Source: Streptococcus chenjunshii
GTDB taxonomy: Bacteria > Bacillota > Bacilli > Lactobacillales > Streptococcaceae
Reading direction: 5' to 3'
DNA: 64,000 nucleotides
Assembly (NCBI RefSeq): GCF_003086355.1
Contig: NZ_CP031733.1
Span: 1,984,001 to 2,048,000, forward strand
This document shows, in pieces, positions 20,486 through 56,888 of this stretch; positions within the stretch are counted from its first letter, which is position 1, and each line of letters opens with the position of its first letter. Under the pieces are notes generated by a model. That model did not search any database. It had not been told where the DNA came from and worked only from the letters and a program-made list of their open reading frames with translations. A program made the translations under genes and the position numbers.

Positions 20486-20962
20486 TTAAAATTTAACTGC
20501 TAGACGGGCTTTAGCAACCGTCTGATAGGGAATAACAACCGTTTTTTTACGCCCTTTATCCATAAATTCGAGCGTCAGTTCCTGACCGTCAAAAGCCAGC
20601 AGATCGCCTTCAAAATGCTTCATCTTATCGATAGGCTTATACAGGCTGACACTGATATAACTTCCCACAGCTTCGGTCAGACTGGCTGCGGTTTTTAAGG
20701 GACGCTCCAGCCCCGGACTGGATACTTCCAAAAGGTACTGATCAGGAAAAGGATCGGGCTTGATTGTATCCAGCAAAGGACTGATAATGTCGGTCAGCTC
20801 TGCTGTATCTTCCACAGTAATCCCTCCGGGCTTGTCCACCAGAATGCTCAAAATATAATCTCCGCCCTTTTTTTCATATTCAACATCAACTAGTACAAAC
20901 GGGGCTTCAATTACAGGGGCAATCTGTTCGGTAACACGTTCGACAATATGATTTGCGATAAT
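20486..20962 (-). CDS. rimP: Ribosome maturation factor RimP, non-canonical start
   Basis: RimP assists 30S assembly. The frame gives [45 protein letters not shown] and [10 protein letters not shown], full-length at about 158 residues. The first in-frame ATG is only at 20851 and would remove the conserved N-terminal ~37 residues. The frame opens after a stop at 20980-20978 and has no ATG, GTG or TTG before the conserved region. AGGAGG sits four bases before an ATT (20962) and seven before an ATC (20959); the ATG at 20966 is out of frame. I infer an ATT or ATC start, or a one-base error here. Confidence 0.9.
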
Positions 20963-21140
20963 GCATCCTCCTTTATATTAACTGCTCTTCTTCTAACACA
21001 GATAAGAGGCGAAGTCCTTACTTCGCCCCCTTTCTTTTTTATTGTTAAAGATAGTATAGCACAGAGCCACTGACAATGCAAGGGAATAGGAGAATTTTTA
21101 TGTCTGCATTTTTCAACACGGCAAAAAACACAATTCAAAT

Positions 21141-22926
<1,786 letters not shown>

Positions 22927-41098: not shown

Positions 41099-41581
41099 TT
41101 ATTTAAAATCTTTGAATAAGGGACGGAGTTTTTTTATCATTTTTTGCCTCCCGGCAAAACGTTCTCCGCGTAAGAGTTTTTGAAACATTTCACGCTCTTC
41201 TTTCCCATCTAAGTTATTCTCCGCTTCCTGAATGACTTCTTTATAAGCAACGTAATCATCTAATGCTAAACTTTTATCGCTCACACAATGCCCTATTTCG
41301 CTAATCTCCTCATAAGCCATTTTATTAAATTTCCGTTTATAACTTTCCTGCTGGCGAATAACATCTTTTAAATAGTTAGAAAATTTGGTTTTAAAATAGA
41401 CATACAATTTCAGTTCATCATAGTATAGGTCCGGGTGTTCATACAAAAGACTGAACAGGACGATATCTCCTTCCTGCAGCCAGTCATTATAATCCCACAA
41501 ATGGATGTGATAACTGCGTTTTAACTTTAAAATAATCGGCCTAACTTTTTTACATAAACTGTCAAATTCATCTTCCCGCAT
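41099..41581 (-). CDS. comX: Competence sigma factor ComX/SigX
   Basis: 160 residues, matching streptococcal SigX. YFKTKFSNYLKDVIRQQESYKRKFNKM covers the conserved region 2-like segment; EISEIGHCVS follows and GRQKMIKKLRPLF lies at the C-terminus. It directs RNA polymerase to late competence genes (CIN-box promoters). A near-consensus ComR box sits at its promoter, so control by the ComRS peptide system is expected; comR and comS themselves are not in the window. Confidence 0.93.
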   Translation of the reverse strand: MREDEFDSLCKKVRPIILKLKRSYHIHLWDYNDWLQEGDIVLFSLLYEHPDLYYDELKLYVYFKTKFSNYLKDVIRQQESYKRKFNKMAYEEISEIGHCVSDKSLALDDYVAYKEVIQEAENNLDGKEEREMFQKLLRGERFAGRQKMIKKLRPLFKDFK

Positions 41582-41945: not shown

Positions 41946-42989
41946 TCAACCTATTAGAAATTTTTGTTCGGGCGTTTTTGAAAGGTATTCTCTTTTTTGT
42001 GGTGCTGACCATATTGCATCGAAATCAATGTCATCAGCAAATCGTGAGTTGAAATCAACAAATAATTTTTCTTTTTTTGTATCCCAACCACGCGCAATAT
42101 CGTGAAAATAAGTATTGTGTTTAAAAGCTGGAATTTCATACAGGTCACGAGCATAGCCCCAAATATTGGTGTATTCGGAAATTCGCTTCTTAATTGGACC
42201 TAAATTTCGATAGTAATGTGTATCAAAACGTGCTAAAGTGACAAAAAAGCGCACATCGCTGTCTGTAACATAATCACCAAACAAAAATCTATTATTCTCC
42301 AATCGTTTTTCAAGCACATCTAAAGTTGTGAAGAAATCATCGAATGCCTCTTCATAAGCAACCAAAGACTGGGCAAACATCATTCGATAAACGCCATTGT
42401 TAACAAATGGAAAAAGGATATTATCGTTCAAATTATCAATATCATTACGCAGCTCTTCTGGGTAAAGATCAGGTGCATTATCCTTTTGGAACGGTTTAAA
42501 ATTAACTTCCAGATAATTGGTCAATCGGTGATAGTCATTATTGGCAACTGTATAAGTTTCTAAATCTACAAGGGCTGGTACGGTTGTCCGACCAGTATAG
42601 TCTGGATCGGCACGATAATAAAATTCAGACAAGAATTCGGCCCCTGTTGTTGGATCAACTTGGTTTTCATAAGCAGCAAAATCCCATCCATATCGGCGTT
42701 TTTCCGGGTCTTTGTAATCGTGTCCGACAATTGTAACAGAAATGGCATCTTCTAAACCTAATAATTCTCGAACAATAGAAGCACGATTCGACCAGTGGCA
42801 TCCTTTTGCCCAATATAAATGATAGCGTCCTTTTTCTGCCTTCAATTCGCCCTTACCGTCTCCAAATGGTCTTGTAAAATGGTTTGGTTGACGTTGAAAA
42901 GCACCGCGTTCATCAATTTCCGTTTTCGTTTCAACAGGGCGGGGTTTTATTTCTACTGGTTTGATATTAGGATTTGTATAGTTTGGCAT
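41946..42989 (-). CDS. GST-Xi-like protein with CHWS site (paralogue 1)
   Basis: 347 residues resembling Xi-class glutathione transferases (glutathionyl-hydroquinone reductases, Ecm4/YqjG). The thioredoxin-fold site reads C64-H-W-S instead of CPWA. VPALVDLETYTVANND and ADPDY lead to the helical domain with NDNILFPFVNNGVYRMMFAQS and ARFDTHYYRN. The enzyme class splits glutathionyl-quinones through a cysteine mixed disulfide. GAGGAG lies upstream. An IS110 remnant separates it from the rest of the island. Activity is inferred. Confidence 0.8.
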   Translation of the reverse strand: MPNYTNPNIKPVEIKPRPVETKTEIDERGAFQRQPNHFTRPFGDGKGELKAEKGRYHLYWAKGCHWSNRASIVRELLGLEDAISVTIVGHDYKDPEKRRYGWDFAAYENQVDPTTGAEFLSEFYYRADPDYTGRTTVPALVDLETYTVANNDYHRLTNYLEVNFKPFQKDNAPDLYPEELRNDIDNLNDNILFPFVNNGVYRMMFAQSLVAYEEAFDDFFTTLDVLEKRLENNRFLFGDYVTDSDVRFFVTLARFDTHYYRNLGPIKKRISEYTNIWGYARDLYEIPAFKHNTYFHDIARGWDTKKEKLFVDFNSRFADDIDFDAIWSAPQKREYLSKTPEQKFLIG

Positions 42990-43039
42990 AATATTTCTCC
43001 TCGTAAAATAAGTTTATGGGGATGTTTCAATCCCAAGTG

Positions 43040-44715
43040 TTGACAATTTTTATAACTTGACTATTGCAAGGTTTTCCAGAACAATAGAGTCATGGAATGG
43101 ACTCATGGTTGTTTCTTTTTCTCCTTGTTGCTTAGACTTCAATGGAAAGTCTGTTACCCAAGCCTTGTCCCTACTTCCAACACACTAGCTGTTTCCACTA
43201 GGCTCACTTCTGTATCTAGTAGGCTACAGGCGGCAGGTGAGCCAGTGCTCAGAATTCTCTTAGGCGAGGCTGTTGGGTCAAGGTGTTTCTGGGGAACCTT
43301 ACAGTCGTCAAGAAAACGTCCAAATCCAATTGAAAGGAGACCTTCCACACGAAATGTTTTGTCGGTTTAGACGTTAGCTCTACAAAACGTGATACCTGTA
43401 TCATGCTCAGTGATACCTCAACGCCATTTACTGCTTCTCTGACTAACGACCTAGTTGGTGCTTCTGAAATCAAGAAACAGGTTCTTGAGCTCAATGAAAC
43501 CCATGCCTTTGAACGCATCGTCATTGCATGGAAGCTACTAGTCTCTACAGTTTTCATCCTGCCATGTTCTTCCACGAAGATAGCGACTTAAATGCTTTAA
43601 ACGTTGAAGTCATGGTGGAACAACCCAATAAGATGAAGAAATATCGGGAAGCCTTTGAAGAAAGTAAAAATGATACCATTGATGCCTTCTACATTGCCGA
43701 TTATTTCCGAGCTGAGCGCTTCTCACCAGCTTTTCTCAAAGAGGAGAAATATGTGGCGCTCCAACATCTAACCAGAACGAGGCTCCAACTTATTGAACAG
43801 CTAACAAGAACCAAACAGCACTTTATTGAAAACATTTATTATAAGTGCAATACCTTGTCTACTGAAATCAAGAATGAGAACCTGACAACCAATCTCTGGT
43901 CTAGCACTATCATCTCCCTGATGACCGAAGATTACACCCTAGACAATTAGCCACTGTTCCTCTCAAAGACCTAGCGGACTTTATCCAGAAGCTAGGGAGA
44001 AGTCGCTTCAAGGCGCCTGAAAAGTTAGCTAAAGCTATTCAAGCAGCTATCAATTTCTTATCGTCTCTCTAAAATCCAACAAGATTCTGTCAATGTCGTT
44101 CTTGGTTTACTCGCTCGAGAAATCAGAAATCTTGAACAAATGATCAAGGAGATGGATAAAGCTATTGAAGAGATGGTCGAAGTCATTCCTGAATATCAGT
44201 GTTTAACGTCAGTACCTGGTCTTGGTAAGGTGTACGCTGCTGGCATTATCGCTGAAATTGGACAGATTGAGCGCTTTAAAGACCACCCTCAAGTCGCTAA
44301 ATATGCGGGATTGAATTGGAAACAGAATCAATCTGGAAACGCTAACTCTCAACATACGGACCTTGTTAAAAGAGGCAATCGTTATCTCCGTTATGACTTA
44401 GTTGAAGCCGCCAACTCGGTGAGACGACAGGATAGCGAATATCAAGCCTTTTACAAGAAGAAGTATCAAGAAGTACCTAAACATCAACACAAAAGAGCCA
44501 TCGTCTTAACCGCTAGAAAATTTGTGCGTCTGGTGGATGTGCTACTACGCAACCACCAACTCTATACGCCACCAAGGAGGCCTATGGAAGATCAGTGATT
44601 ATCGGCACAAGTCCTTGGTTAAGCTAGTGAAAAAAGCGATTTTCACTAGGTGTTTTTTGTGCATCCTGTTTTCTAGAAAATCAACTAAACCTTATTCAAC
44701 TTTAGCTTGACTTTT
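43040..44715 (+). mobile_element. IS110-family insertion sequence remnant
   Basis: Approximate limits only; I could not define the ends or a target duplication. It lies between two paralogous GST genes and holds a broken transposase at 43355-44598. The first ~300 bases are non-coding and GC-richer than the flanks. Confidence 0.65.
43355..44598 (+). pseudogene. IS110-family transposase, frameshifted
   Basis: FVGLDVSSTKRDTCIMLSD is the N-terminal DEDD-type start of IS110 transposases but no ATG precedes it. The frame shifts near 43530, giving MEATSLYSFHPAMFFHEDS and DTIDAFYIADYFRAERF, and breaks again near 43930; the C-terminal part (44140-44598) has SVPGLGKVYAAGIIAEIGQ and KYAGLNWKQNQSG, the serine-containing IS110 domain. 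At least two frameshifts and one stop make it inactive. Confidence 0.85.
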
Positions 44716-44731
44716 TACCACTAGACTTTAA

Positions 44732-45688
44732 TTAAATATAGTGACGACTAGCACGGTCATGCGGCAAATCCCAAATGCTTAAATCGGGACCTTTGGGTAA
44801 AATTTGATGGGGATTATCGATAGCACTTAAGTGATAGTGTTTTTTGATATGGTCAAAATTGGTTGTCTCTTTAAAAGCTTCTTGCTGATAAAGGTCACGC
44901 GCATAGCCCCAAAGATTCGAAAAATCAATTAAACGATTGCGATTACAGCGAAAACCATTATAGTAGGCAATATCAAAACGTACCAGAGACACGTAAAGCC
45001 GAATATCAGAATCCGTTACCTGCTCACCGAGCAGATATCGACTGTGTGCTAATCTTTCTTCTAATTCATCCAACCGTTGAAATAAGTTATCATAGGCTTC
45101 TTCATAAGCTTTTTGACTCGTAGCAAAGCCTGCTTTGTAAACACCATTGTTAATATCATGAAAAATAATGTCATTCAAAATATCAATATCATCACGTAAT
45201 TCCTCTGGATAAAGGTCAGGAGCATTATCGCTATGAAATGGTGCCCAATCCGTTTCCCAAATTTTCAACAGATGATAAAAGTCGTTATTAACGACTTTTT
45301 CTGTCTGTAAATCTACCACGGCTGGAACAGTAAAGCGCCCTTGATAAGAAGAATCAGTTTTTAAATACAATTCGCTTAAATAATGGACACCCAGAACAGG
45401 GTCTGTTTTATTTTCGCCCAAACTGAACTCCCAATCTGTTCGATTAACACCTACAGGGCGAATAGGATTAACGACACCTACGCTAATAACATTTTCCAGC
45501 CCTAATAGTTTTAAAGCAATTAACTGTCTATGTGCCCAAGGACAAGCATACGAAACGATTAACCTATAACGGTTCTTCTCAACAGGTAACTGCCCCTCTT
45601 CTTTTCCAAAAGGAGTTGTAAATCTTGTTTTTTGGCGTTTAAAATGTCCTGAATTATCTACTTCTTTGCTAACAAACTCTGTCGTCAT
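44732..45688 (-). CDS. GST-Xi-like protein with CPWA site (paralogue 2)
   Basis: 318 residues. The canonical Xi-class site is C49-P-W-A in SYACPWAHR. VPAVVDLQTEKVVNNDFYHLL, DNAPDLYPEELRDDIDILN and WGYARDLYQQ match paralogue 1. Xi-class enzymes reduce glutathionyl-hydroquinones. The start overlaps the upstream 48-residue ORF by four bases (ATGA), so it is coupled to the binding-protein/GNAT operon. The best candidate for a fully active glutathione-dependent reductase here. Confidence 0.88.
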   Translation of the reverse strand: MTTEFVSKEVDNSGHFKRQKTRFTTPFGKEEGQLPVEKNRYRLIVSYACPWAHRQLIALKLLGLENVISVGVVNPIRPVGVNRTDWEFSLGENKTDPVLGVHYLSELYLKTDSSYQGRFTVPAVVDLQTEKVVNNDFYHLLKIWETDWAPFHSDNAPDLYPEELRDDIDILNDIIFHDINNGVYKAGFATSQKAYEEAYDNLFQRLDELEERLAHSRYLLGEQVTDSDIRLYVSLVRFDIAYYNGFRCNRNRLIDFSNLWGYARDLYQQEAFKETTNFDHIKKHYHLSAIDNPHQILPKGPDLSIWDLPHDRASRHYI

Positions 45689-45831
45689 AGCCCTTCCCTG
45701 CTTTCTGTTTCTTCTAAAAATAGAAATGAAATATCTTCTAAATATCCATTTGCCTGCAGGCTTGTTAAGCGATATATCATTGAACGCGCATCATCTTCGT
45801 AGATCAAAAGGGATTTTAAAAATTTTTTCAT
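45685..45831 (-). CDS. 48-residue ORF coupled between GNAT and GST
   Basis: ATG at 45831, one base after the GNAT stop codon, with AAGG about 11 bases upstream; its stop overlaps the GST start (ATGA). The product begins MKKFLKSLLIYEDDARSM and ends FLFLEETESREGL; no membrane segment or known family is apparent. Tight overlaps on both sides suggest a translated gene rather than chance, but I do not recognise it. Confidence 0.6.
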   Translation of the reverse strand: MKKFLKSLLIYEDDARSMIYRLTSLQANGYLEDISFLFLEETESREGL

Positions 45832-45832
45832 G

Positions 45833-46318
45833 CTAATACCGTCCTTTCTCACTATCAAAACGATATTTTTCCGGTAAAAAGAACCCTTCATCTTCCATCC
45901 ATTGCAAACTTTCAGGTGTTCCATGTCCAAAATAAGCAAAAGCTGTTTTGCTCCGCCTGAAGCCGTATTTCTCATATAAAGTCAGTGTTTGCGGATGTGT
46001 ATAGAGGATAATATTAATTCCTTTCATTTTTTCCAACAGAGTTGTTATAATTGTATGCCCAATATGCTGACCTTGGTAGTCCGCATTAACAGCGACATTA
46101 TAAATTGCTCCTTGTGAAACAAAATCGGTCAAAGCACGTCCAACCCCAATCACTTTATTTCTATCCTTAATATAAACAGTGATATCGCTGTTACGGAAAG
46201 ACTTTTCAGTTTGCTTCACATCTGTATTGCTAGCAAGCCCTGCTGAATGCAAAACATCAGCAACCTGTTGAAAATCCACCTTATCCGAATCTGTTTCAAT
46301 TGTATATTTAAAAGTCAT
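45833..46318 (-). CDS. GNAT-family N-acetyltransferase
   Basis: 161 residues with a GNAT core: VIGVGRALTDFVSQGAIYNVAVNADYQGQHIGH includes the acetyl-CoA loop, followed by LYEKYGFRRSKTAF. In Bacillus, related GNATs (SnaA, SnaB) acetylate S-modified cysteines in operons with cystine-type transporters and M20D deacetylases. Gene context here is similar, so a substituted amino acid is a reasonable substrate guess. It follows the binding-protein gene by nine bases. Confidence 0.88.
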   Translation of the reverse strand: MTFKYTIETDSDKVDFQQVADVLHSAGLASNTDVKQTEKSFRNSDITVYIKDRNKVIGVGRALTDFVSQGAIYNVAVNADYQGQHIGHTIITTLLEKMKGINIILYTHPQTLTLYEKYGFRRSKTAFAYFGHGTPESLQWMEDEGFFLPEKYRFDSEKGRY

Positions 46319-46327
46319 AACAATCTC

Positions 46328-47182
46328 CTAGTTATCATAAGTTGGTGAATAATCTTCATCAAAATACTTTTCGTTAATCTGTTTAGAAGTTCCGTCTTCA
46401 ACGATTTCTTTAAGCGCAGTATTAATATCCTCTGCTAGTTGCGTTTCTTCTTTTCCGACCACAAAATAACTGTATGGTTCAGACATTAAGGCTGTTGACA
46501 AATCTCCGCTAATCGTTTTACCCGTTAAATCCAAATTATATTCTTTTTGATAGTATTCGAACATCGGTTTATCCATAACGAGAAAATCATATTTACCACT
46601 TTCAACTCCCTCAAGCTGTGATTTTAAATCCTCAGAAGAATAATTGAGTTCAATCGTACTATCTGGGTTCGCTTTATTATATTCTTCAATTGCTGTCGTT
46701 GAATTTACACCTGATGACCCAACTGTCGATAAACCAGCTAAATCCGACCATTCATCAGCCGCTTTAGTTTTATCACTACCGTTTTTAAAAATAACGACGT
46801 AAGCATTTTTAAAAATTGGATCTGTAAAAAGATAATTCTTTTCACGTTCTTCATTTTTAGCTAAATTATTCACTGCAATGTGATAGCGCCCAGAGGTTAG
46901 ACCCGAAAATATAGATGAGAATTCAACTTTGACGATTTTTAGTTTGTACTGAGGTAGCTTTTCAAAAACAGCTTTGATTAATTCAATATTTTGTCCAGTT
47001 AGTTCACCATCTTCCTCGTAAGTAAATGGTTTGGGTGACCCACTTGTTGCCGCAACAACTATATTTTTTTCACTAGAGTCGGACTTGGTTTCACCAGTCT
47101 TTTTAGTCAGTTTATTAAAAATCAATACCCCCACTAATACCACTGCGATAATAGAAACAACCCATTTTACTTTTTTCTTCAT
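46328..47182 (-). CDS. Family-3 amino-acid ABC solute-binding protein
   Basis: 284 residues. An N-terminal membrane segment (VSIIAVVLVGVLIF) lacks a lipobox Cys, so the protein is probably anchored by an uncleaved signal. The binding domain has PFTYEEDGELTGQNIELIKAVF, NNLAKNEEREKNYLFTDPIF and an AEDINTALKEIVEDGT C-terminal segment, as in polar amino acid or cystine binders. No matching permease or ATPase gene is next to it. It may feed a distant transporter. ATGs at 47188 and 47182 are both possible. Confidence 0.88.
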   Translation of the reverse strand: MKKKVKWVVSIIAVVLVGVLIFNKLTKKTGETKSDSSEKNIVVAATSGSPKPFTYEEDGELTGQNIELIKAVFEKLPQYKLKIVKVEFSSIFSGLTSGRYHIAVNNLAKNEEREKNYLFTDPIFKNAYVVIFKNGSDKTKAADEWSDLAGLSTVGSSGVNSTTAIEEYNKANPDSTIELNYSSEDLKSQLEGVESGKYDFLVMDKPMFEYYQKEYNLDLTGKTISGDLSTALMSEPYSYFVVGKEETQLAEDINTALKEIVEDGTSKQINEKYFDEDYSPTYDN

Positions 47183-47214
47183 TGTCATTCCCCCTAAAAG
47201 TTTTATTAAGTACA

Positions 47215-47273
47215 ACTATCTTACCACCACCTCATAAGTCTGCATAATCTATCTTTTTTATAGCTATTCATAA
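47215..47273 (-). promoter_or_regulatory. Island promoter A (binding protein operon)
   Basis: Minus strand: TTATG-N6-TATAA dyad (47273-47258), 11 bases, TATGCAG (47246-47240), 13 bases, TGGTAAGATAGT (47226-47215; TAAGAT as -10). The same three blocks at the same spacing lie before the amidohydrolase gene. No good -35 is present, which fits an activator. The region also lies upstream of divergent pepV. Confidence 0.7.
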
Positions 47274-47354
47274 TTTTTTTTAATAGCTCAAAGACTGGTC
47301 TTCTTCTTATTTTTAAGGTAATATGATAAAAAATTATTAGGAGGTCAATCGCTT

Positions 47355-48755
47355 ATGATAAATTGGGCAAAAGTTATCAAACCCTATAAAGAAGAACTGC
47401 TAACAGATTTAGATGGTCTGCTCCGCATTCCTTCCGTCAAAAATTTAAAAACGGCTTCGGCTGATGCTCCCTTTGGAACTTCTATTCAAGAGGCTTTAGA
47501 CTATATTCTAGAGCTGGGCAAGCGTGACGGCTTTACAGCCAAAGATGTTGATCACTATGCAGGTCATTTAGAGATTGGACAGGGAGATAAATTACTGGGG
47601 ATTCTCAGTCATCTGGATGTTGTTCCCGCCGACCCTAGTCAGTGGGAGACCAATCCTTTTATTCCTACTGTTAAGAATGATCGGCTATATGCCCGGGGAG
47701 CTTTAGATGATAAAGGTCCCGCACTGTTGGCTTACTATGCCGTAAAAATACTTAAAGATCTAGGAGTGACATGGAATCAACGCATTCGACTCATCTATGG
47801 TACTGACGAAGAAAATGATTGGAAAGGTGTTCACTATTATTTTACTAAAGAAGAAATGCCTAACTATGGAATTGTTCCTGACGGCATCTTCCCTCTGATT
47901 TATGCAGAAAAAGGTGTTATTTCTATTGATTTAACTAAGGACCTTCATTCCGAAAACTTAGTAGAGTTCAAAAGCGGCTCCGCCTACAATGTGGTTCCTG
48001 ATTTTGCCAGTGCCAAATTAGTTTATCACGCAGACTTAGAAAATGATTTCTCTGCCTTCCTGGAACAATACGGACTCAAAGGACATTTTGCAAAAACTGA
48101 GGACTATCAACATCTGAAGATATTTGGTTATTCTGCACATGCCGCTAGTCCCTCTGGCGGAACCAATGCGGTGCTTCATCTCACCCATTTCTTGACAAAC
48201 TTAACTTGGGACGAGTCCGCAAACAATTTTTTAAAATTTATCAATCACTATCTCTTTGATGACTTTACAGGTCAGTCTTTTGGTATAGATTTTAACGATA
48301 ACGAGTTGGGTAATGTGACTATTAACACAGCTTTTGTGACCATTGAGAAAGGCAAGGCTAAAATCGGGCTCAATCTGCGTTATCCAGCTAGTTATGATTT
48401 TGAGATACATTATCAAAAATTAAGTCAAGTAGCTAAACAGCACAATATAGCTACTACTGTCATCTCACATAAGTTACCTAGTTACTCTAATATTGACGAT
48501 CCTGAAACAAAGATCCTCCTAGAAACCTATCGTAAACACACAAGTGACCAAACACCACCACTAGCGATTGGTGGTATTACATACGGTCGTATTTTTGAAC
48601 GGGGTATTACCTTTGGGCCAGTTTTTCTGGGTAAACCAGCAACGCTGCACCAACCTAACGAGTATATCGAACTTGACGACCTCTTTAAAGGGCTAGAAAT
48701 TTATTTAGATGCCCTTTATCAAATTGCTACTGCTGAAGGTCAGACAGCCGATTAA
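47355..48755 (+). CDS. pepV: PepV-type (M20) dipeptidase
   Basis: 466 residues. M20 metallopeptidase motifs: LSHLDVVPADPSQW and ARGALDDKGPALL hold metal ligands, YGTDEENDWKG the catalytic Glu, and PDGIFPLIYAEKG follows. PepV splits a wide range of dipeptides, including those with D- or beta-amino acids in some species; here it could take Cys-Gly from glutathione. AGGAGG precedes the ATG. It is divergent from the binding-protein operon. Confidence 0.9.
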   Translation: MINWAKVIKPYKEELLTDLDGLLRIPSVKNLKTASADAPFGTSIQEALDYILELGKRDGFTAKDVDHYAGHLEIGQGDKLLGILSHLDVVPADPSQWETNPFIPTVKNDRLYARGALDDKGPALLAYYAVKILKDLGVTWNQRIRLIYGTDEENDWKGVHYYFTKEEMPNYGIVPDGIFPLIYAEKGVISIDLTKDLHSENLVEFKSGSAYNVVPDFASAKLVYHADLENDFSAFLEQYGLKGHFAKTEDYQHLKIFGYSAHAASPSGGTNAVLHLTHFLTNLTWDESANNFLKFINHYLFDDFTGQSFGIDFNDNELGNVTINTAFVTIEKGKAKIGLNLRYPASYDFEIHYQKLSQVAKQHNIATTVISHKLPSYSNIDDPETKILLETYRKHTSDQTPPLAIGGITYGRIFERGITFGPVFLGKPATLHQPNEYIELDDLFKGLEIYLDALYQIATAEGQTAD

Positions 48756-48915
48756 AACCTAAAAGAAGCTTATATTGGGCTTCTTTCGTCTATTATGAGA
48801 AAACCTTCGCTACCTTTTGGGACCATGAAAAATAAGGTGATAGGGGTTACGATCCTCTAACAAAGATAGAAAAGCGGTTTCTTTTCCGTCACAATATCAA
48901 TGCTATCGGCAATCT

Positions 48916-49738
48916 CTAGCAACTGAAAAGTTTGGTTACATAAGTTTTGAGGTGTTCGTAATCAAAACTTTTAGCAAAGTTGATCTTGCTTAAATAGTAA
49001 TCAATGTGAGCAAAGCGCAACAAAGTCTGATAGAGCAATTTATCATCTTTTGATACCTAATCGCCAAGTAAGGACTCCCCCAAACGTTGATCGATGAGCT
49101 CAAAAGCATCTGAAATCTGATGAAATCAGCGGTCTAAGTCTGTTTGAAAAATTGCTTGACCTGCTAGTTTAATGGGAATGATGAGGTAATCCTGCAAAAA
49201 CTGAATTTCGACTTGAACATTGCGATGCGCATAAATCAGGCGTTGCTCGTCTTGTGTCAAAAAAATAAATGTCGGATTATTGGACAAATGCTCTCAACCA
49301 GCAGGTTTCAAAAAATCACGATTATCCGGTCCTGTTCCAAGCAGACCATAGACATTTCCTTGTCTAGCTCGCATGTGTGGTGACAGTTGACCGTCCAACA
49401 AAATCAGAATCACCCTTTAGGTAAGCATCGTCAAGATAATGAATTTTCAGAACAGAATCCAGCTTACTGACATCTTCACTAAAAAACCAGCCACGCGGAT
49501 CACGCAATACACCACACTCTCCAATACTAATAACACGATCAAGATCCAATAATTTCAAGATAACCACAGCTTTGTTAGAATGTGGGCAACCAGGCATCCA
49601 AATTAGATGGTAACAATTGGCTTCCACTGGCAATTGACCCACACCGTCACCAAATTTTTTATCGAAGACAAATCTGCTGTTCAACTTTGCCTGGTTCTTT
49701 ATTAATTTGATGCTTAAAAATTTGTTCGAAAAGCGCAA
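48916..49738 (-). pseudogene. Broken GST-Xi-like gene (paralogue 3)
   Basis: The intact first 124 codons carry the thioredoxin-fold part with C-P-H-S in MPGCPHSNKA and VGQLPVEANCYHLIWMPG. After SDFVGRST the frame ends; downstream minus-strand frames still show GTGPDNRDFLKP, IPIKLAGQAIFQTDLDR, ALIDQRLGESLLGD-like and RFAHIDYYLSK pieces of the helical domain with frameshifts and stops. A degraded third copy, at the end of the C26 operon. Confidence 0.75.
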
Positions 49739-49820
49739 TAAATTGAAATGGTTTGATGTAACTCATAAAGTAGATTCCTTTTCTAAAATTCTCAAAGCAA
49801 GAACTTTTGAAACAGTAATA

Positions 49821-50525
49821 CTAAACTTGTTTAGCGGCTTTAGCTTTTTCAACCAAATCATCAAACAGCGATTGGTCACTTACCGATTGGTCAATAAGAA
49901 ATTCTGGATGCCATTGGACAGCTAATAAAGGATAATTAGGAAGTTCAACTGCTTCAATCGTCCCATCTCGTGGATCACGCGCTGTAACAACTAAATTTTG
50001 TCCCAGTTTGTCTAAGGATTGATGATGTACTGAATTGACAGATGCGCCAGAGGTAAATAGGCGCGATAGGTCACTGCCTTCTACCGCTTCTATCTGGTGG
50101 GCAAGCTGCAATGGTGAACCTAGTGCATGGCTGGAAATTTCTTGGTTAAGTGTTCCTCCTAAAGCAACATTTAGGAGCTGCATCCCACGACAAACTGCCA
50201 GAATAGGCTTCCGTTGTGCCAAAGCTTCTTTTATCAAGGCCAATTCAAAACGATCACGGTTAATGTCATAATCATTTTTTTCCGTCTGACGTTCTTGACC
50301 ATAAAAACTTGGATGAACATCCTGCCCACCCGTCAGCAGCAAAGCATCAATAGCAGTCATGTAATCTTTAGCTTCGTCTTCCGTACTGACTGGCAAATAA
50401 ACGGGTAAACCGTCTGCTTTTTTTACACCGTCAGCAAAATTACGAGATGACGAAAGATGTATGATTGGTAAATCAGGTACCACTGGTTTTTCATTTGCTG
50501 AAATGCCAATAAGAACTTTAGGCAT
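49821..50525 (-). CDS. Gamma-glutamyl hydrolase-type (C26) protein
   Basis: 234 residues of the class-I glutamine-amidotransferase fold. The nucleophile is C112 in LAVCRGMQLLN; H206 and E208 lie in VQWHPEF, completing the triad. LLLTGGQDVHPSFYG is typical of PuuD-like gamma-glutamyl hydrolases, which act on gamma-Glu-GABA or other gamma-glutamyl compounds. It overlaps the ABC ATPase gene by eight bases, tying gamma-glutamyl hydrolysis to peptide uptake. Confidence 0.88.
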   Translation of the reverse strand: MPKVLIGISANEKPVVPDLPIIHLSSSRNFADGVKKADGLPVYLPVSTEDEAKDYMTAIDALLLTGGQDVHPSFYGQERQTEKNDYDINRDRFELALIKEALAQRKPILAVCRGMQLLNVALGGTLNQEISSHALGSPLQLAHQIEAVEGSDLSRLFTSGASVNSVHHQSLDKLGQNLVVTARDPRDGTIEAVELPNYPLLAVQWHPEFLIDQSVSDQSLFDDLVEKAKAAKQV

Positions 50526-51426
50526 GACTGGCCTCCTTATCTACACGAACAAAGTGGTCCTCACCAAACTGCTGCCATTCATAATCATCAGACAAATCAA
50601 ATTTCTGGATAGAATCGTCTATTTGTAATAGCTTTTCTTTAGCTAATCTAGGATCTAGTTCGGGTTTTGCTGCTAATAAGTATTTGGTGTAGGGATGTTG
50701 AGGATGATTAAAGAGATGTTCAGCAGGCGCAATTTCCACCAGTTTTCCACGATAGAGTACTGCAATACGGTCTGAAATATGACGAACAACAGACAAATCG
50801 TGTGAAATGAACAAGTAAGATAAATTTAATTCTGCTTGTAAATCTTTGAGCAAATTTAAAATTTGTGACTGAATAGACACGTCAAGAGCTGAGGTTGGCT
50901 CATCACAGACGATAAAGTCAGGATGATTAACCACTGCTCGTGCAATACCAATTCTCTGACGCTGACCACCTGAAAATTCACGTGGTAATTTTTGCACAGT
51001 CTCCCCCTCAATACCAACTAACCTTAGAATAGCAACTGCTTTTTCTCTTGCTTCTTCTTTGCGCAGTCCCAGTAATGGTTCTTGAACCAGCTCCAGCGCA
51101 GTCATTCGCGGATTGAGAGCAGAGTATGGATCTTGAAAAATAATTTGCAGCTGGCTGGCTATCTGACGTTTTTCTTTGGCTGACAAATCATGAATACTCT
51201 TCCTTTCAAAAAAAACTTGACCATTATCAATGCTTTCTAACCCTAAAATAATGCGCCCCAAAGTGGTCTTCCCAGAGCCTGATTCTCCAACCAAACCTAG
51301 GGTCTCACCTTTGCGAATAGAAAGACTGAGATTGTCGACAGCAGTCACCGAAATCTTATCTCGCTGTCGTTTTCCACTTTTAAAAACCTTGCTAACTCCT
51401 TGCAACTCAATAATATTTTCAACCAT
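50518..51426 (-). CDS. Peptide ABC transporter ATP-binding protein (OppF-like)
   Basis: 302 residues. Walker A is GLVGESGSGKTTLG, the signature EFSGGQRQRIGIARA, and Walker B VCDEPTSALD; the C-terminal ~50 residues form the oligopeptide/dipeptide-family extension (YTKYLLAAKPELDP). It powers import with the OppD-like partner. It starts one base after that gene's stop. Confidence 0.92.
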   Translation of the reverse strand: MVENIIELQGVSKVFKSGKRQRDKISVTAVDNLSLSIRKGETLGLVGESGSGKTTLGRIILGLESIDNGQVFFERKSIHDLSAKEKRQIASQLQIIFQDPYSALNPRMTALELVQEPLLGLRKEEAREKAVAILRLVGIEGETVQKLPREFSGGQRQRIGIARAVVNHPDFIVCDEPTSALDVSIQSQILNLLKDLQAELNLSYLFISHDLSVVRHISDRIAVLYRGKLVEIAPAEHLFNHPQHPYTKYLLAAKPELDPRLAKEKLLQIDDSIQKFDLSDDYEWQQFGEDHFVRVDKEASHA

Positions 51427-51427
51427 A

Positions 51428-52291
51428 TCATTCCTCTTCTAAGTAGCGATGTGTCTCATTGACCTCTATAAAGGACCAAGTTTTGTTGTCTTGTTCATCA
51501 TTATAGACCACTTGATCGTCACTATCTAGGTCTGCTGCTTTCAACAATTTTTTCGTATAAGTATGCTGCGGCGAATAGAAAATATCTTCCACAGTTCCTT
51601 CTTCCACCACACGCCCTTGGTACATCACCTTGACATAATCGCACATACCAGCAATAACACCAAAATCATGGCTAACTAAAATAATAGATAAATTAGTATC
51701 CGACGGTAGTTTTTTGAGTAAACTAAGAATTTGAGCTTGGATGGTTACGTCCAGCGCTGTTGTGGGTTCATCTGCAATCAATAATTCTGGTTTCGCCATT
51801 AAAGCCATAGCGATCATAATCCGTTGACGCATCCCTCCAGATAATTCAAATGGATACTGATTCAAACGTTTTTTAGGTTCCGTGATCCCGACTTTAGTCA
51901 AAATAGTTACTGCTAATTTTTCAGCATCTTCATCGCTGATCTCGTCGTCGTTTCTAAAAATAATCTCTGCTAGATGGTAAGAAATCTTGCGCAGGGGATT
52001 AAGCGAAGTCATCGGATCCTGAAAAATCATGGCAATAGGAAGTTGGGTAGCATCTGTACCTGTCTCACCTTGGAAAGTAAAAGTTTCAAACTGTGAGTCG
52101 ATTTTTTCTGGCAAGATACCCATGATTGATTTCATAGAAATACTTTTACCTGAACCTGATTCGCCAATAATACCGACAATAGAACCTTTAGGAACTTGAA
52201 AATCAATGCCCTTAACTAGCTGAAGATTCTCATGCCCTCTCTGATGGTACGTTACCGTCAGACCTTTTACATCTACAATGGCCTCTGTCAT
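51428..52291 (-). CDS. Peptide ABC transporter ATP-binding protein (OppD-like)
   Basis: 287 residues. Walker A GIIGESGSGKSISMKS, signature ELSGGMRQRIMIAMALM and Walker B IADEPTTALD are present, with the C-terminal SPQHTYTKKLLKAADLDS region. The ATG at 52291 (MTEAIVDVKGLTV) is preferred to a frame opening in oppC. Second ATPase of the heterodimer. Confidence 0.92.
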   Translation of the reverse strand: MTEAIVDVKGLTVTYHQRGHENLQLVKGIDFQVPKGSIVGIIGESGSGKSISMKSIMGILPEKIDSQFETFTFQGETGTDATQLPIAMIFQDPMTSLNPLRKISYHLAEIIFRNDDEISDEDAEKLAVTILTKVGITEPKKRLNQYPFELSGGMRQRIMIAMALMAKPELLIADEPTTALDVTIQAQILSLLKKLPSDTNLSIILVSHDFGVIAGMCDYVKVMYQGRVVEEGTVEDIFYSPQHTYTKKLLKAADLDSDDQVVYNDEQDNKTWSFIEVNETHRYLEEE

Positions 52292-52292
52292 C

Positions 52293-53126
52293 TTATACCT
52301 CCCTTTGAATATATGATTTGAAAACTTCACTTAAATTGTTAATGGAATAAATGGTCAATAATACAAATAACCCTGGTAAAATCGCCATATATGGTGCACG
52401 CTGTAAGCTACTTTGTGCATTTTGGAGCAAACTCCCCCAAGATGACATAGGGTGCTGAATTCCCATTCCCAAGAAAGATAAAGCCGATTCCGTCATAATG
52501 GCGCTCGATATACTGTTAGTCGCTGCTACAATCAATGTTGGTAAGATATTTGGAATAATATGACGTAAAATAATCTTTGTTCTACTCTCGCCGATAAATT
52601 CACTATAAACCACATATTCTCGATTTTTAACCGAAAGTATTTCAGCACGGATAAGACGAGAAATCCCCATCCATGAAAAGCCACCAATAACAATAATAAT
52701 CGTGGTTAAACTAGGTCGTAAAAAGACACTCAAAACAATGACCAGAACCAACCAAGGAATTGATGAGAGAATTTCAACTAGACGCATGAGAATATTGTCC
52801 ACCCAACCGCCAAAATAGCCAGACAGCACACCAACTAAGGTTCCAATAAAAGTTGATGCCAGCATAGCTGATATGGCAACAATGAGTGAAACGCGTCCTC
52901 CGTAGATAACGCGAATAAAGTAATCACGTCCCAAATCATCCGTCCCAAACCAATGTGATAAACTAGGACCTTGCCAAACATTTGTCACATCTGTTGCCGT
53001 CGGGCTGAATGGAAATAGCGGTGCAGCAACAGACAGAATAATCAAAAACAAAAGAAAAAAGAAAGAGAAAGCATTAAGACGCGAAGAGAGAATCGCTCGC
53101 CAAATTTTAGCAAGTTGTATTTTCAT
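52293..53126 (-). CDS. Peptide ABC transporter permease (OppC-like)
   Basis: 277 residues with about six membrane segments. The N-terminal FSFFFLLFLIILSVAAPLF and HWFGTDDLGRDYFIRVIYG are typical of OppC/DppC; the EAA-like cytoplasmic loop includes FIGESRTKIILRHIIPNILPT. It overlaps the OppB-like gene by four bases. Confidence 0.92.
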   Translation of the reverse strand: MKIQLAKIWRAILSSRLNAFSFFFLLFLIILSVAAPLFPFSPTATDVTNVWQGPSLSHWFGTDDLGRDYFIRVIYGGRVSLIVAISAMLASTFIGTLVGVLSGYFGGWVDNILMRLVEILSSIPWLVLVIVLSVFLRPSLTTIIIVIGGFSWMGISRLIRAEILSVKNREYVVYSEFIGESRTKIILRHIIPNILPTLIVAATNSISSAIMTESALSFLGMGIQHPMSSWGSLLQNAQSSLQRAPYMAILPGLFVLLTIYSINNLSEVFKSYIQREV

Positions 53127-54082
53127 TTGGCACCAGCCTTTCTAATACGAGGATCGACGACAAAATAAAGAATATCAGATAAAAGATTACCTGAAATAAC
53201 CAAGTTTGATGAAATCAGCAAAACGGCCATGATGATAGGGTAATCAAGATTGCTAGTGGCGCTAGTCAAATAAGTTCCAATACCAGGCCATCCATAAATA
53301 TTTTCTGTAATAATGGCACCAGTTACAAACATCGGTAAAGCCTGTCCAATGCGTGTCACAATGGGAATCCAAATATTCCGCAAAACATGATGACTAAAAA
53401 TCTCTGACTGATTAGCATGAAAAGCTCGCTGAACTGTCACATAATCTTCTCCAACCTGTTCAATTGCTGACGAGCGAATATAACGCAGTAATTCTGGAAA
53501 ATAGGCAATAATCAAAGTTAGATAAGGTAAAATAAGATGCTTGAGTAAATCTAACATATTCCCTTCTTGTCCACTTGAATGCATGCCAGTAATAGGTAAC
53601 CAATTGAGCTTATAGCCAAATAGATATATCAAAAGCATCCCAAACCAGAAAGTAGGCGTTCCCATACCGATTGAAGCAAACGCATTGACAAATTTATCCC
53701 AGAAATGTCCTTTATTAGCAGCCGCAACCAATCCTAAGATACTAGCTAAAACGAGAGAAGTCACATAGGCTGGTACGACAATCATCAACGTATTTGGAAT
53801 TTTAACTGCCAATTCTGACGAAATATTTGACTGTGTAATCAAAGAATTTCCAAAGTCTCCTCGCAATACGTTGAGTAGCCAATGCACATATTGAACCAAG
53901 AAAGGATCATTGAGACCATTTTTCTCACGTAATAAATCAATTTGCTCTTGTGTCATGTTAGGTGTTGTTAGTGTATCCACGACATCAAAGGGAGCAATCT
54001 GAATTAAGGCAAAGACAATAAAGGAAATAATAAGCAACAGGGGAATTGCCTGTAACAGTCGTTTACCAATGTATTTCCACAT
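53123..54082 (-). CDS. Peptide ABC transporter permease (OppB-like)
   Basis: 319 residues. The start MWKYIGKRLLQAIPLLLIIS and the segment NPFLVQY-like NDPFLVQYVHWLLNVLRGDFG fit OppB/DppB; the cytoplasmic loop has RAFHANQSEIFSHHVLRN. I chose the ATG at 54082; the 28 codons upstream run through the oppA tail spacer. Confidence 0.92.
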   Translation of the reverse strand: MWKYIGKRLLQAIPLLLIISFIVFALIQIAPFDVVDTLTTPNMTQEQIDLLREKNGLNDPFLVQYVHWLLNVLRGDFGNSLITQSNISSELAVKIPNTLMIVVPAYVTSLVLASILGLVAAANKGHFWDKFVNAFASIGMGTPTFWFGMLLIYLFGYKLNWLPITGMHSSGQEGNMLDLLKHLILPYLTLIIAYFPELLRYIRSSAIEQVGEDYVTVQRAFHANQSEIFSHHVLRNIWIPIVTRIGQALPMFVTGAIITENIYGWPGIGTYLTSATSNLDYPIIMAVLLISSNLVISGNLLSDILYFVVDPRIRKAGAK

Positions 54083-54141
54083 AGTTTTTCTCCTATTATC
54101 CAAAAGGCTGAGAACAGCTCTATTCCCAGCCCAACTATCAA

Positions 54142-55731
54142 TCATTTTACGTCCAATGCAGCCCAATCACCAAAGGTATAAATTGGGTATAGATTTTTCG
54201 TTTCAACGCCAGTCACGCGGTTATTAGCTGTAATAACCCCCTTATCAGAAGAAATCGGGTAGATAACCGCTTGGTCAGCCAATTCTGTTTGTAACGCATT
54301 ATAAACTTCTTTACGGTCGTTTTCGTCAAGTGTTGATGCACCTTCTGCAAAGAAGTCATCAATATCGCTGTTTGCTAACTTGAAGTAGTTTGAAGCACCG
54401 CCAGTTTGGAAAAGACGTTTGTAAGTGTCAGGATCGTTACCCATACTATATGAACGAAGGAAGAGCGGATATTTGGTAGTACCATCAGCCTTCAATTCAG
54501 CCAAAATAGTATCACCATCACCACCTTCAAGGTTAACAGTCACACCAATCTCTGACAGTTCTTCTTGAATAATAGCTGCTTCTTTAACAAAAATATCATT
54601 TGAAGAATCGTAAGCCAATGTAAAGGTCAAGTCAGAAGCGCCTGCTTCCTCCAAGAGTTCTTTAGCTTTTTCAATATTTTGTGCGTAGCTTGGTGTTTTC
54701 TTATAGTAGAAAGCATTGTCGCTTGGTAAGAATGATTTAGCTTCAAGATAGTAATCCTTAGAGTCGAAGACACCTGTATTGATTTCATCACGATCCAAAG
54801 CATAAAAAACCGCTTGGCGGATACGGCTATCAGTGATAATTTCAGAGTTAATGCCAAGGTAGTTAATACCACCCGCTGAATACGTATATGATGTCACATC
54901 ACTATTTCCCAAGTCAGCAATATCCGTTGATGAGATAGAGGCAATATCAACTTCACCATTTTGAAGAGCTACTTTGAGTGTATCTGAGTTAGAAATAATC
55001 TTAACGTCAATAGTATCAACATTGACATCACCACCATAGTAGTACTTATTGGCTGTCAATTTAAGACCACTGCCTGATGTGTAGCTTCCCAAAACATAAG
55101 GACCGGTCCCGACCGTTGGATAAACACCCAAATCATTAACAGAGAAATCAGAAATATCATTATAAACATGCTCTGGAATGATGATATAAGTTTCATTGGT
55201 AATATTATTCACCGCAGCAGCGCTAGCACTTGGAAGGTTGAACTGGACAGTGTAATCATCCAGTTTTTCAACGGATAATGGTTCATCACTAATCCAGAGG
55301 CTTTCATATTTTCCGTTTTCTTTCTTAGCTTTTTCAGTGTAAGTGAAGACAACATCATCAGCAGAAAATCCTTCCCCATCTGACCATTTAACATCATCAC
55401 GCAATTTAACTATAATGGATTCCCCATCTTCCGATTGTTCAATATCGATTGCCAATTCATAAGTGACCGTTCCATCGTTATTGGTTCTAGCCAGCGGAGA
55501 ATATATCATGTTAATAGTTTTCAACCCCCAAAGATCATTTGAATTGATTGGGTTAAGCGATACAGGATCGCCACCAATTCCATACGTCAAATTCTTGTTT
55601 TTGGACGATGAAGCTGTTGTTGACTGACTCGTGTTGCTTTGAGCAGCAAACCAAGCTACTGCTGCTATAATAACCACAATAATTGTTGCGATAATGATAT
55701 AAAGTCTTTTTTGATTCATCCGTCTTTTCAT
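54142..55731 (-). CDS. Peptide ABC solute-binding protein (family 5)
   Basis: 529 residues. An N-terminal membrane segment (LYIIIATIIVVIIAAVAWF) lacks a lipobox Cys, so anchoring is by an uncleaved signal, unlike typical OppA lipoproteins. The binding domain has YGIGGDPVSLNPINSND, KLRDDVKWSDGEGFSADDV and VGTGPYVL. Family 5 binds oligopeptides, dipeptides or nickel complexes; a peptide or conjugate ligand is likely here. It follows the amidohydrolase gene by 23 bases. Confidence 0.9.
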   Translation of the reverse strand: MKRRMNQKRLYIIIATIIVVIIAAVAWFAAQSNTSQSTTASSSKNKNLTYGIGGDPVSLNPINSNDLWGLKTINMIYSPLARTNNDGTVTYELAIDIEQSEDGESIIVKLRDDVKWSDGEGFSADDVVFTYTEKAKKENGKYESLWISDEPLSVEKLDDYTVQFNLPSASAAAVNNITNETYIIIPEHVYNDISDFSVNDLGVYPTVGTGPYVLGSYTSGSGLKLTANKYYYGGDVNVDTIDVKIISNSDTLKVALQNGEVDIASISSTDIADLGNSDVTSYTYSAGGINYLGINSEIITDSRIRQAVFYALDRDEINTGVFDSKDYYLEAKSFLPSDNAFYYKKTPSYAQNIEKAKELLEEAGASDLTFTLAYDSSNDIFVKEAAIIQEELSEIGVTVNLEGGDGDTILAELKADGTTKYPLFLRSYSMGNDPDTYKRLFQTGGASNYFKLANSDIDDFFAEGASTLDENDRKEVYNALQTELADQAVIYPISSDKGVITANNRVTGVETKNLYPIYTFGDWAALDVK

Positions 55732-55754
55732 ATATTCCTACTTTCTAAAAACGA

Positions 55755-56888
55755 TTAACCATAATACTCTAATAAATAAAGAGCACTTTCAACAAAATAA
55801 TGAACAGCAACTGGCAAAGCTTCATCACGCACGATAAAATCATCATGATGCCAGTCTGGTGCACCGTCCTCCCCGTTTGAACCTACAAAAGCAAACACCC
55901 CAGGAATTTTTTCCTGATAAGCCGCGAAATCTTCTCCTCCTGTTGATGGCAATGTTTCGATAACCTCAGCAAACTTCTTAGAATTTTCAAAGATTAAGGG
56001 TGTAATTGTTGTGTCATTAAAGGTCACTCTAGGAGAATTTCCCCAAACAATCTCAACGTCTGCTCCAAATTGCTCTGCTGTAGTCTGAACCATTTTGGTA
56101 AACTTATCGACAACTGACAAGCGGATATCAGGGTCAAATGTCCTGATTGTTCCTTCAAAGAAACCTTTAGCAGGCAGAACATTCCATGTGTTGCCAACAT
56201 CGATGTGTGTCACTGACAACACTGCTGACTGGAACGGAGACACTGTCCTTGATACAATGCTTTGTAAATTATTGACAATTGTCGTAATAACTAAAACAGT
56301 ATCGATACCCAAATCAGGCCTTGCTGCATGTGCACTAACACCTTTGACAGTAACTTTAAACTGTTCAACACCGGCCATAATAGCACCTGATCGTAAAGCA
56401 AGCTGACCTGGTTTCAAATGAGGATTATTATGATAACCAACAATAGCCGATACACCCTCAATACCTCCAGCAGCAATCACCTGATGCCCACCTTGAAAAT
56501 TTTCTTCTGCTGGTTGAAAGATGAGACGTACAGTCCCCTTTAACTCTGCCTCCTTCTGTTTCAAAACTTCTGCTGCTCCCAGTAGACTTGTTTGATGAAA
56601 ATCGTGTCCGCATGCGTGCATCGCTCCGTTATGACTAGCGTAATCAAGATTTGTCTTCTCTTGAATGGGCAAGGCGTCAATATCAGCCCTCAAAGCAATA
56701 ACAGGTTCCCCATGGCCAATCTCAGCGATTACTCCTGTTGGAAGCGGATAATCTAAAGGCTTAATACCAAGATTTCTAAGATGCTCCTTGATATAAGCAG
56801 TTGTTTCATATTCATTTTCAGAAACTTCCGGATGTTGATGAATATAATGACGAACAGCCGTTAATTTTTGATAAAAAGTATCTGACAA
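55755..56888 (-). CDS. M20D amidohydrolase (N-acyl amino acid type)
   Basis: 377 residues. Metal ligands lie in MHACGHDFHQ, with the catalytic Glu in QPAEENFQGGHQVIAAG; ALRADIDALPIQEK, VKGVSAHAARPDLGIDT and STGGEDFAAYQEKIPG are M20D hallmarks. Relatives include HipO, aminoacylases and the Bacillus SndA/SndB (YxeP) deacetylases of N-acetyl S-modified cysteines. The start is TTG at 56888 with GGGAGG upstream. It heads the peptide-transporter operon under a promoter matched to that of the GNAT operon. Confidence 0.9.
   Translation of the reverse strand: MSDTFYQKLTAVRHYIHQHPEVSENEYETTAYIKEHLRNLGIKPLDYPLPTGVIAEIGHGEPVIALRADIDALPIQEKTNLDYASHNGAMHACGHDFHQTSLLGAAEVLKQKEAELKGTVRLIFQPAEENFQGGHQVIAAGGIEGVSAIVGYHNNPHLKPGQLALRSGAIMAGVEQFKVTVKGVSAHAARPDLGIDTVLVITTIVNNLQSIVSRTVSPFQSAVLSVTHIDVGNTWNVLPAKGFFEGTIRTFDPDIRLSVVDKFTKMVQTTAEQFGADVEIVWGNSPRVTFNDTTITPLIFENSKKFAEVIETLPSTGGEDFAAYQEKIPGVFAFVGSNGEDGAPDWHHDDFIVRDEALPVAVHYFVESALYLLEYYG

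Follow-up and report, generated by a model that had tools for sequence, protein, structure and literature searches.

A four-gene unit of binding protein, acetyltransferase and paired Xi-like glutathione transferases in Streptococcus chenjunshii: a candidate for oxygen-free salvage of S-substituted cysteine

The region considered here is a 64,000-nucleotide stretch of the Streptococcus chenjunshii chromosome (NCBI RefSeq assembly GCF_003086355.1, contig NZ_CP031733.1, positions 1,984,001 to 2,048,000), hereafter the window, and within it an island whose core is four genes: a family-3 solute-binding protein (SBP3), a GNAT acetyltransferase, and two proteins, GST2 and GST1, that resemble glutathione S-transferases (GSTs) of the Xi class. 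Around this core lie genes for an M20D amidohydrolase, a PepV dipeptidase, a C26 gamma-glutamyl hydrolase-type enzyme and an oligopeptide importer (OppABCDF). From the sequences, and with a confidence only a little better than even, we read it as a salvage unit for S-substituted cysteine of the acetylate-cleave-deacetylate type, in which the Xi-like GSTs would release the sulfur without oxygen. A sequence-only reading of the same DNA had proposed a glutathione and S-conjugate scavenging island related to the yxe and ytm operons of Bacillus subtilis; as a whole it is partly supported, and its central inference, a related pathway with GST-like proteins in the place of the monooxygenases, holds up.

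The core unit in Streptococcus

Matches to GST2 at E<=1e-10 were found in 50 of 197 Streptococcus genomes, and close matches (at least 65%) in eight, the window's genome included. All seven congeners with a close GST2 keep the order SBP3-GNAT-GST2-GST1, and their GST1 orthologs are 70-83% identical to that of the window. GNAT, searched at 1e-15 with a model built from these eight genomes, is found in exactly the same eight of the 197; the probability of such a coincidence is 1/C(197,8) = 2e-14 if shared ancestry is ignored. SBP3 (1e-70) occurs in nine of the 197, that is, the eight carriers and a genome (G161) in which a truncated SBP3 is immediately followed by a C-terminal piece of GST1 (locus L060, 9636-10939) and in which the Streptococcus searches found neither GNAT nor a full GST2. 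This locus is a deletion remnant of the core unit. The genome that has it carries pieces 86-92% identical to the window.

The unit is placed at differing chromosomal sites. At L053, L056 and L058, it follows a divergent LysR gene and an operon of UroD-like protein, SBP, two permeases and ATPase, and precedes mevalonate genes; at L054, L055 and L059, it comes after C26 and/or PepV. Nearly the whole island of the window is kept in Streptococcus sp. HF-1907 (L057 and L109), with LysR, M20D, OppABCDF, a shortened C26, a two-frame PepV, SBP3, GNAT, GST2 and GST1, and the fuller island is also seen at L059/L107, with M20D on another contig. Conservation of the entire island is thus rejected, or at best weakened; only the four core genes are tight. 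That the genes occur together elsewhere, which the sequence-only reading had named as its own refutation test, is borne out for the core by its order in the seven congeners and by related sets beyond the genus.

Two further observations concern the neighborhoods of the unit. The UroD-family protein that opens the cystine-type importer operon beside it (L053 3494-4501, L056 15860-16882 and L058 15905-16921) is also found at L108 12410-13411; it matches Pfam URO-D at 9.9e-18 and is weakly like the MtaA/CmuA methyltransferases, and no PDB sequence matched it at 1e-3; it may have a thiol or methyl-transfer role. The operon itself is presumably the tcyDEFGH of S. mutans. The name tcyDEFGH and its control by HomR are given in PMC5131005. 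In S. loxodontisalivarius (L059 7953-13802), C26 and PepV are separated by genes of haem-uptake type, which encode NEAT-domain proteins and a periplasmic-binding protein.

The paired GSTs and their thiol site

The best solved relatives of GST2 are 4pts (6.9e-89) and 3m1g (7.9e-84), the latter of which we take, from its species and CPWA motif, to be MstX of Corynebacterium glutamicum. Both GST1 and GST2 fall in general GST domains only in Pfam and in no NCBIfam family; it is the matches to solved structures, and not Pfam or NCBIfam, that make them Xi-like. Kinship with the class holds for GST2 by sequence and by structure model (predicted local distance difference test, pLDDT, 86.9; the first 32 Foldseek hits are all Xi-class chains) and for GST1 by sequence (Table 1).

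The catalytic Cys is kept in 97 of 97 aligned GSTs. Of the Tyr triad (Tyr189, Tyr247 and Tyr290 of NmGHR), GST2 has all three and GST1 two, with Trp at the third position. In the canonical Xi thiol site, the residues Asn-Glu-Ser (N-E-S) hold glutathione. They are present in NmGHR and in 22 of 22 streptococcal singletons (those of L031-L052, a subset of the singletons found), as against Asn-Asp-Tyr/Phe/His in 74 of 75 island-type GSTs, including N-D-F in GST2 and N-D-Y in GST1; the lone exception, L072_3225, aligns as QNEA. N-D-F/Y is also what the closest pair of solved relatives has, one from Gordonia and the other from C. glutamicum. Only these motif counts are used here, support for the island branch in the GST tree being low (0.43). 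GST2 has the catalytic motif CPWA, which is said to be strictly conserved in the Xi class (PMC6345682), and GST1 has CHWS instead.

This altered site argues against glutathione itself as the thiol that the GSTs bind. Glutathione in that role is rejected, or at least weakened, by the motif together with the PF04262 glutamate-cysteine ligase, which was found in 0 of 12 anaerobe carriers (described below) and in nine of nine Streptococcus carriers, other ligase families not having been searched. The N-D-Y/F site may instead read N-acetylcysteine, and N-E-S gamma-glutamylcysteine, a reading that fits a neighboring GNAT that would N-acetylate cysteine. The thiol part of mycothiol is N-acetylcysteine (PMC10950700).

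Three Xi-class GSTs had been claimed for the island; two stand as Xi-like, with motifs that depart from the canonical Xi pattern, and the third, GST3, does not. The N-terminal part alone of GST3 is open (ORF, open reading frame, 49364-49738), and at 1e-3 it gives no hit in Pfam or NCBIfam; the stretch that corresponds to the C-terminus of its relative (48928-49389) is in a different frame with three stops. A tblastn search with a paralog from L072 matched the two parts at 1.95e-46 and 4.9e-50, respectively, in differing frames. GST3 is a dead, decayed copy and no working gene, and its broken frame and stops rule out three working GSTs.

Related operons beyond Streptococcus

A scan of named genomes gave 26 loci, 18 of them outside Streptococcus, in Lacrimispora, Kineothrix, Hungatella, Konateibacter, Galacturonibacter, Clostridium-named genomes, metagenome-assembled genomes of a Treponema and an Oscillospiraceae member, and others. 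These hosts are mostly strict anaerobes. In the 18 loci, where gene labels are blastp matches at 1e-8 to the reference proteins of this analysis, and which include near-duplicates and two loci (L073 and L085) whose operon is truncated by a short contig, a GNAT homolog accompanies GST1 in 15 and a different acetyltransferase does so in two more (L068 and L078). A full cystine-type SBP-permease-ATPase importer is present in 15, an M20-family hydrolase in 14, and at least one pyridoxal-phosphate (PLP) sulfur enzyme in 13; up to five Xi-like paralogs are found in one locus (L072).

In one Lacrimispora-like lineage, GST2 and GST1 are fused in a 658-residue frame (L071, L074, L076 and L085; being 97-98% identical, the four are counted as one event). 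The structure model of the fusion is poor, with pLDDT 37.5 and predicted template modeling score (pTM) 0.25. Two other candidates were not counted as fusions: the 651-residue ORF of L068, which has one catalytic motif only, and L084, the frame of which is broken.

Among 200 genomes drawn from Lachnospiraceae, the family of the Lacrimispora genome that holds L074, GST (E<=1e-60) is found in 13, GNAT (1e-15) in eight and both in five. The two genes lie at most 4 kb apart in all five double carriers (hypergeometric probability 2.6e-5, kinship ignored).

Cleaving enzymes, deacetylase and binding protein

The ORF list, Pfam and NCBIfam revealed no YxeK-type monooxygenase, CmoO/CmoJ or 2SL-type lyase among the ORFs of the island, and no NtaA/DmoA monooxygenase (TIGR03860) scores over the cut-off in 20 of the 21 carrier genomes. 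The remark that GSTs stand in the monooxygenase place survives. The single TIGR03860 enzyme of the window genome lies far from the island.

The best solved relative of M20D is B. subtilis YxeP (1ysj, 1.7e-99; the next is at 3.8e-62), a proven N-acetylcysteine deacetylase according to PMC12757645. Homologs at E<=1e-60 occur in 64 of the 197 Streptococcus genomes, all eight carriers included. Two genomes without the core unit, G078 and G165, have M20D homologs of 89% and 81% near a class-I-lyase gene, and in make-up these loci look like yxe/scm loci with a 2SL-type lyase. The class-I lyases at L108 825-6351 and L110 1-5375 score 414 and 418 bits with NCBIfam XcbD, below its cut-off of 600; L108 additionally has MmgE/PrpD and 205-residue acetyltransferase genes, both confirmed by Pfam.

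The closest solved relatives of SBP3 are 4c0r (7.3e-41) and 4eq9 (1.8e-40), both of which we take to be GshT, followed by Lmo2349 and B. subtilis YtmK (2o1m, 2.1e-24). No permease or ATPase gene adjoins SBP3 in the window. The proposed likeness to yxe and ytm holds up in these two proteins, M20D being closest to YxeP and SBP3 homologous to YtmK.

Accessory genes

The route of uptake and trimming that had been suggested, through the peptide importer, C26 and PepV, fares unevenly. PepV adjoins the unit in five of the eight congener loci inspected (L054, L055, L057/L109, L059 and L062) and not in L053, L056 or L058; it is split over two frames in L055 and L109. Two other models stay below their cut-offs for the window's PepV (3M3SH_dipept, 389 bits against 1025; TIGR01886, a second PepV model, 411.7 against 632).

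The Opp-C26 part is weaker. OppA at E<=1e-150 is present in 16 of the 197 genomes, and close (at least 71%) in three, all of them unit carriers, the window's own included; orthologs of all four of OppF, OppD, OppC and OppB were found in L059 and L109. C26, which matches PuuD (6vtv, 2e-23), has homologs at E<=1e-60 in 151 of the 197. Thirteen genomes have a more distant OppA; in 11 of them C26 lies within 5 kb of OppA (among the matches listed, the placement in G143 was not seen and the C26 of G187 is far from OppA), and GNAT is present in none of the 13. Opp-C26 is therefore a pairing independent of the core unit, and the Opp-C26 part of the island is an add-on to a tight core.

Proposed pathway

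From the gene content, order, co-occurrence, homologies, catalytic Cys and changed thiol motif observed here, we infer the following reactions and substrates, every one of which is conditional. A conjugate of cysteine or of a cysteinyl peptide would pass from SBP3 to an ATP-binding cassette (ABC) importer of the cystine type; in species with Opp, C26 and PepV, these may in addition supply gamma-glutamyl or dipeptide forms. Once GNAT had N-acetylated the imported Cys-S-R, the GST pair would use its catalytic Cys to attack the sulfur of N-acetyl-Cys-S-R and free R-H, leaving an enzyme-N-acetylcysteine mixed disulfide that a cellular thiol would resolve, and M20D, or another M20-family hydrolase in the anaerobes, would deacetylate the N-acetylcysteine to cysteine. 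By analogy with what Xi enzymes do elsewhere, the likeliest R is a quinol or an aryl group.

We suggest more tentatively, and with somewhat less than even confidence, that the GSTs of the island represent a novel kind of enzyme, for which one might use the name mercapturate reductases: thiol-dependent, oxygen-free cleavage of N-acetyl-S-substituted cysteine by paired Xi-like proteins (CPWA and CHWS, with N-D-Y/F), perhaps as heterodimers. If this is true, such enzymes would let anaerobes salvage cysteine from plant-phenol conjugates or host mercapturates.

Several points weigh against the salvage proposal and should be kept in mind. Its support is genomic. No NCBIfam model scores over its cut-off for GNAT, the best one being below, and the protein is placed at the level of family (Acetyltransf_7), a closer kinship with SnaA, SnaB or YxeL being conjectural. 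M20D lies within 11 kb of GST2 in just five of the eight carriers, and 56 of the 189 GNAT-less genomes have it too. In the Lachnospiraceae draw, eight of the 13 GST genomes are without GNAT and three of the eight GNAT genomes are without GST. The one carrier with a TIGR03860 enzyme is the window genome itself. In this strain, moreover, the GST2-GST1 gap is 1742 bases and holds a decayed IS110-family element, as against -122 to +42 bases in the seven relatives (measured between the longest ORFs, the choice of which gives rise to the negative values). The frame of GST1 is intact in the window, and, cut off from GST2, the gene may have lost the shared transcript.

The TIGR03860 enzyme of the window genome is an NtaA/DmoA-family flavin mononucleotide (FMN) monooxygenase at about 169 kb in that genome (L104 9019-10347; 409 bits, cut-off 279.7). 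It lies near a nitronate-monooxygenase-like gene and sugar-uptake-type genes and is not beside GNAT or M20D genes.

Alternative explanations

The main rival, which we regard as unlikely, is disulfide salvage, in which glutaredoxin-like GSTs would reduce disulfides brought in by the importer (cystine, N-acetylcystine or mixed disulfides of cysteine) and leave C-S bonds uncut. The importer is indeed of the cystine type, PLP enzymes able to cut C-S bonds are present in many anaerobe loci, and MstX is described as having strong mycoredoxin-type activity and a very low mycothiolyl-hydroquinone reductase activity (about 2.7 per M per s; PMC6815410). Such a role would explain neither the dedicated GNAT in the eight Streptococcus carriers nor why many operons of the anaerobes contain three to five GST paralogs.

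Lower in probability is detoxification, with the GSTs guarding against quinones or electrophiles and their neighbors recycling the cysteine part of conjugates made within the cell. Canonical Xi enzymes reduce glutathionyl-hydroquinones (PMC6345682), and mutation of mstX sensitizes C. glutamicum to oxidants and electrophiles (PMC6815410), both of which would suit this role; the constant pairing with an SBP, and the full importer in most loci outside Streptococcus, speak for uptake.

We give still less credence to a third type of breakdown of S-(2-succino)cysteine (2SC), in which 2SC would be the substrate and the GSTs would replace YxeK and 2SL. Xi substrates are of the quinone type, and we know of no precedent for a thiol-dependent reductive release of succinate. 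Its appeal comes from G078 and G165, in which M20D homologs are near 2SL-like lyase and MmgE/PrpD genes, and from a 2022 survey of the YxeK and 2SL variants, which reports 11 of 102 yxe loci with neither YxeK nor 2SL (PMC9706529).

A chance neighborhood of unrelated amino-acid and peptide genes, to which the GNAT-less Opp-C26 pairs and the M20D genes of GNAT-less genomes would lend themselves and which may account for the Opp/C26/PepV part, is very improbable for a core of four genes that stay syntenic at different chromosomal sites and of which the GNAT-GST pair recurs in distant anaerobes.

Gene content of the window

All genes named by the sequence-only reading were recovered through the ORF list, Pfam and NCBIfam at the positions in Table 1. 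On the minus strand, the order from upstream is M20D, OppABCDF, C26, the GST3 remnant, SBP3, GNAT, GST2 and GST1, and a tRNA-Asn gene and an rRNA operon lie directly upstream of M20D. At the Rfam gathering score, no riboswitch or T-box was found in the window or in 14 relative loci.

Table 1. Features of the island (positions in the window)
Feature	Position	Strand	Evidence and remarks
GST1	41946-42989	minus	Xi-like GST; catalytic motif CHWS; thiol site NNDY; Pfam GST_C_2 and GST_N_2; 4pts 3.8e-57
Decayed IS110-family transposase	43528-44598	plus	ORFs 43528-43950 and 44140-44598; several frames with stops; Pfam Transposase_20 2.9e-23 on ORF 44140-44598 only
GST2	44732-45688	minus	Xi-like GST; motif CPWA; thiol site NNDF; Tyr triad kept
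GNAT acetyltransferase	45833-46318	minus	Acetyltransf_7 1.6e-10; putative S-substituted-cysteine N-acetyltransferase
Solitary family-3 solute-binding protein (SBP3)	46328-47215	minus	SBP_bac_3 3.8e-30
PepV dipeptidase	47355-48755	plus, divergent	NCBIfam PRK07318 523.9 bits, cut-off 435
GST3 remnant	48928-49766	minus	Third Xi-like paralog; CPHS motif; broken frame
C26 gamma-glutamyl hydrolase-type enzyme (accessory)	49821-50525	minus	Peptidase_C26 217.5 bits, 2.5e-64
OppF, OppD, OppC, OppB (accessory)	50518-54166	minus	ORFs 50518-51426, 51428-52330, 52293-53126, 53123-54166; OppF by NCBIfam
OppA-type binding protein (accessory)	54142-55731	minus	SBP_bac_5 2e-71
M20D amidohydrolase	55755-56888	minus	TIGR01891 (amidohydrolases) 351.8 bits, cut-off 153.75; putative N-acetylcysteine deacetylase

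Elsewhere in the window, a 160-residue ORF (41099-41581, minus) without a Pfam hit at 1e-3 separates the GST unit from the genes upstream; by its look, we take it to be a ComX-type competence sigma factor. The frame of pyrG (CTP synthase; 20900-22810, minus) is broken, the ORF at 21446-22810 diverging after ...LEG and the remainder being in another frame, which may be a real pseudogene or a sequencing error.

Comparison with known systems

The ytm/ytn operon of B. subtilis (CmoO/CmoJ) serves the salvage of S-alkylcysteine. The logic of acetylation, S-release and deacetylation is the same, and SBP3 is homologous to YtmK, whereas CmoO and CmoJ, neither of which is in the island, require oxygen (PMC10863075).

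With the Xi glutathionyl-hydroquinone reductases (YqjG, PcpF and NmGHR), the island GSTs share the fold and the catalytic Cys, and GST2 also the CPWA motif and Tyr triad; they differ in having N-D-F/Y in place of N-E-S and, in GST1, CHWS and no third Tyr. If 3m1g is MstX, that protein is among the closest solved relatives, with N-D-Y common to both. The difference is that MstX is a single, mycothiol-using stress-response gene (PMC6815410), whereas GSTs of the island type occur two or more together, within a sulfur operon.

SBP3 resembles its closest solved kin moderately and in overall sequence only, and it has no permease or ATPase of its own beside it. Those kin are presumably GshT. GshT is a glutathione-binding protein that works with TcyBC (PMC4360819).

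The routes known to us for salvage of S-modified cysteine either require O2 (YxeK and CmoO/CmoJ) or remove a succinyl group (2SL). We found no description of this gene set or GST variant in the titles and abstract starts of the openly licensed PMC literature. The acetylate-cleave-deacetylate salvage of yxe and ytm is known, and the proposed oxygen-independent variant with Xi-like GSTs is probably new. If true, it would give a function to an Xi-like GST branch in hosts in which the PF04262 ligase was not found, and it would bear on the microbial handling of mercapturates and polyphenol-cysteine adducts.

Another close system is the B. subtilis yxe (scm) cluster for S-(2-succino)cysteine, of the YxeK or 2SL type, which likewise brings together a GNAT, a family-3 importer component and an M20D (PMC9706529, PMC12757645). 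The island differs in having Xi-like GSTs and no YxeK-type monooxygenase or 2SL-type lyase, and in the window the importer part is a solitary binding protein, as against an ABC transporter of the YxeMNO type. A yxe/scm locus is defined as one with at least three of five components clustered (PMC9706529); the island has the YxeP-like deacetylase, an acetyltransferase assigned to the GNAT family only, and of the transporter the SBP only, with YxeK and 2SL both absent. The main text of that survey gives no hit for 'GST' or 'Streptococc', and a GST-based, oxygen-free route, if true, would be a candidate for the yxe loci in which it reports no known cleaving enzyme.

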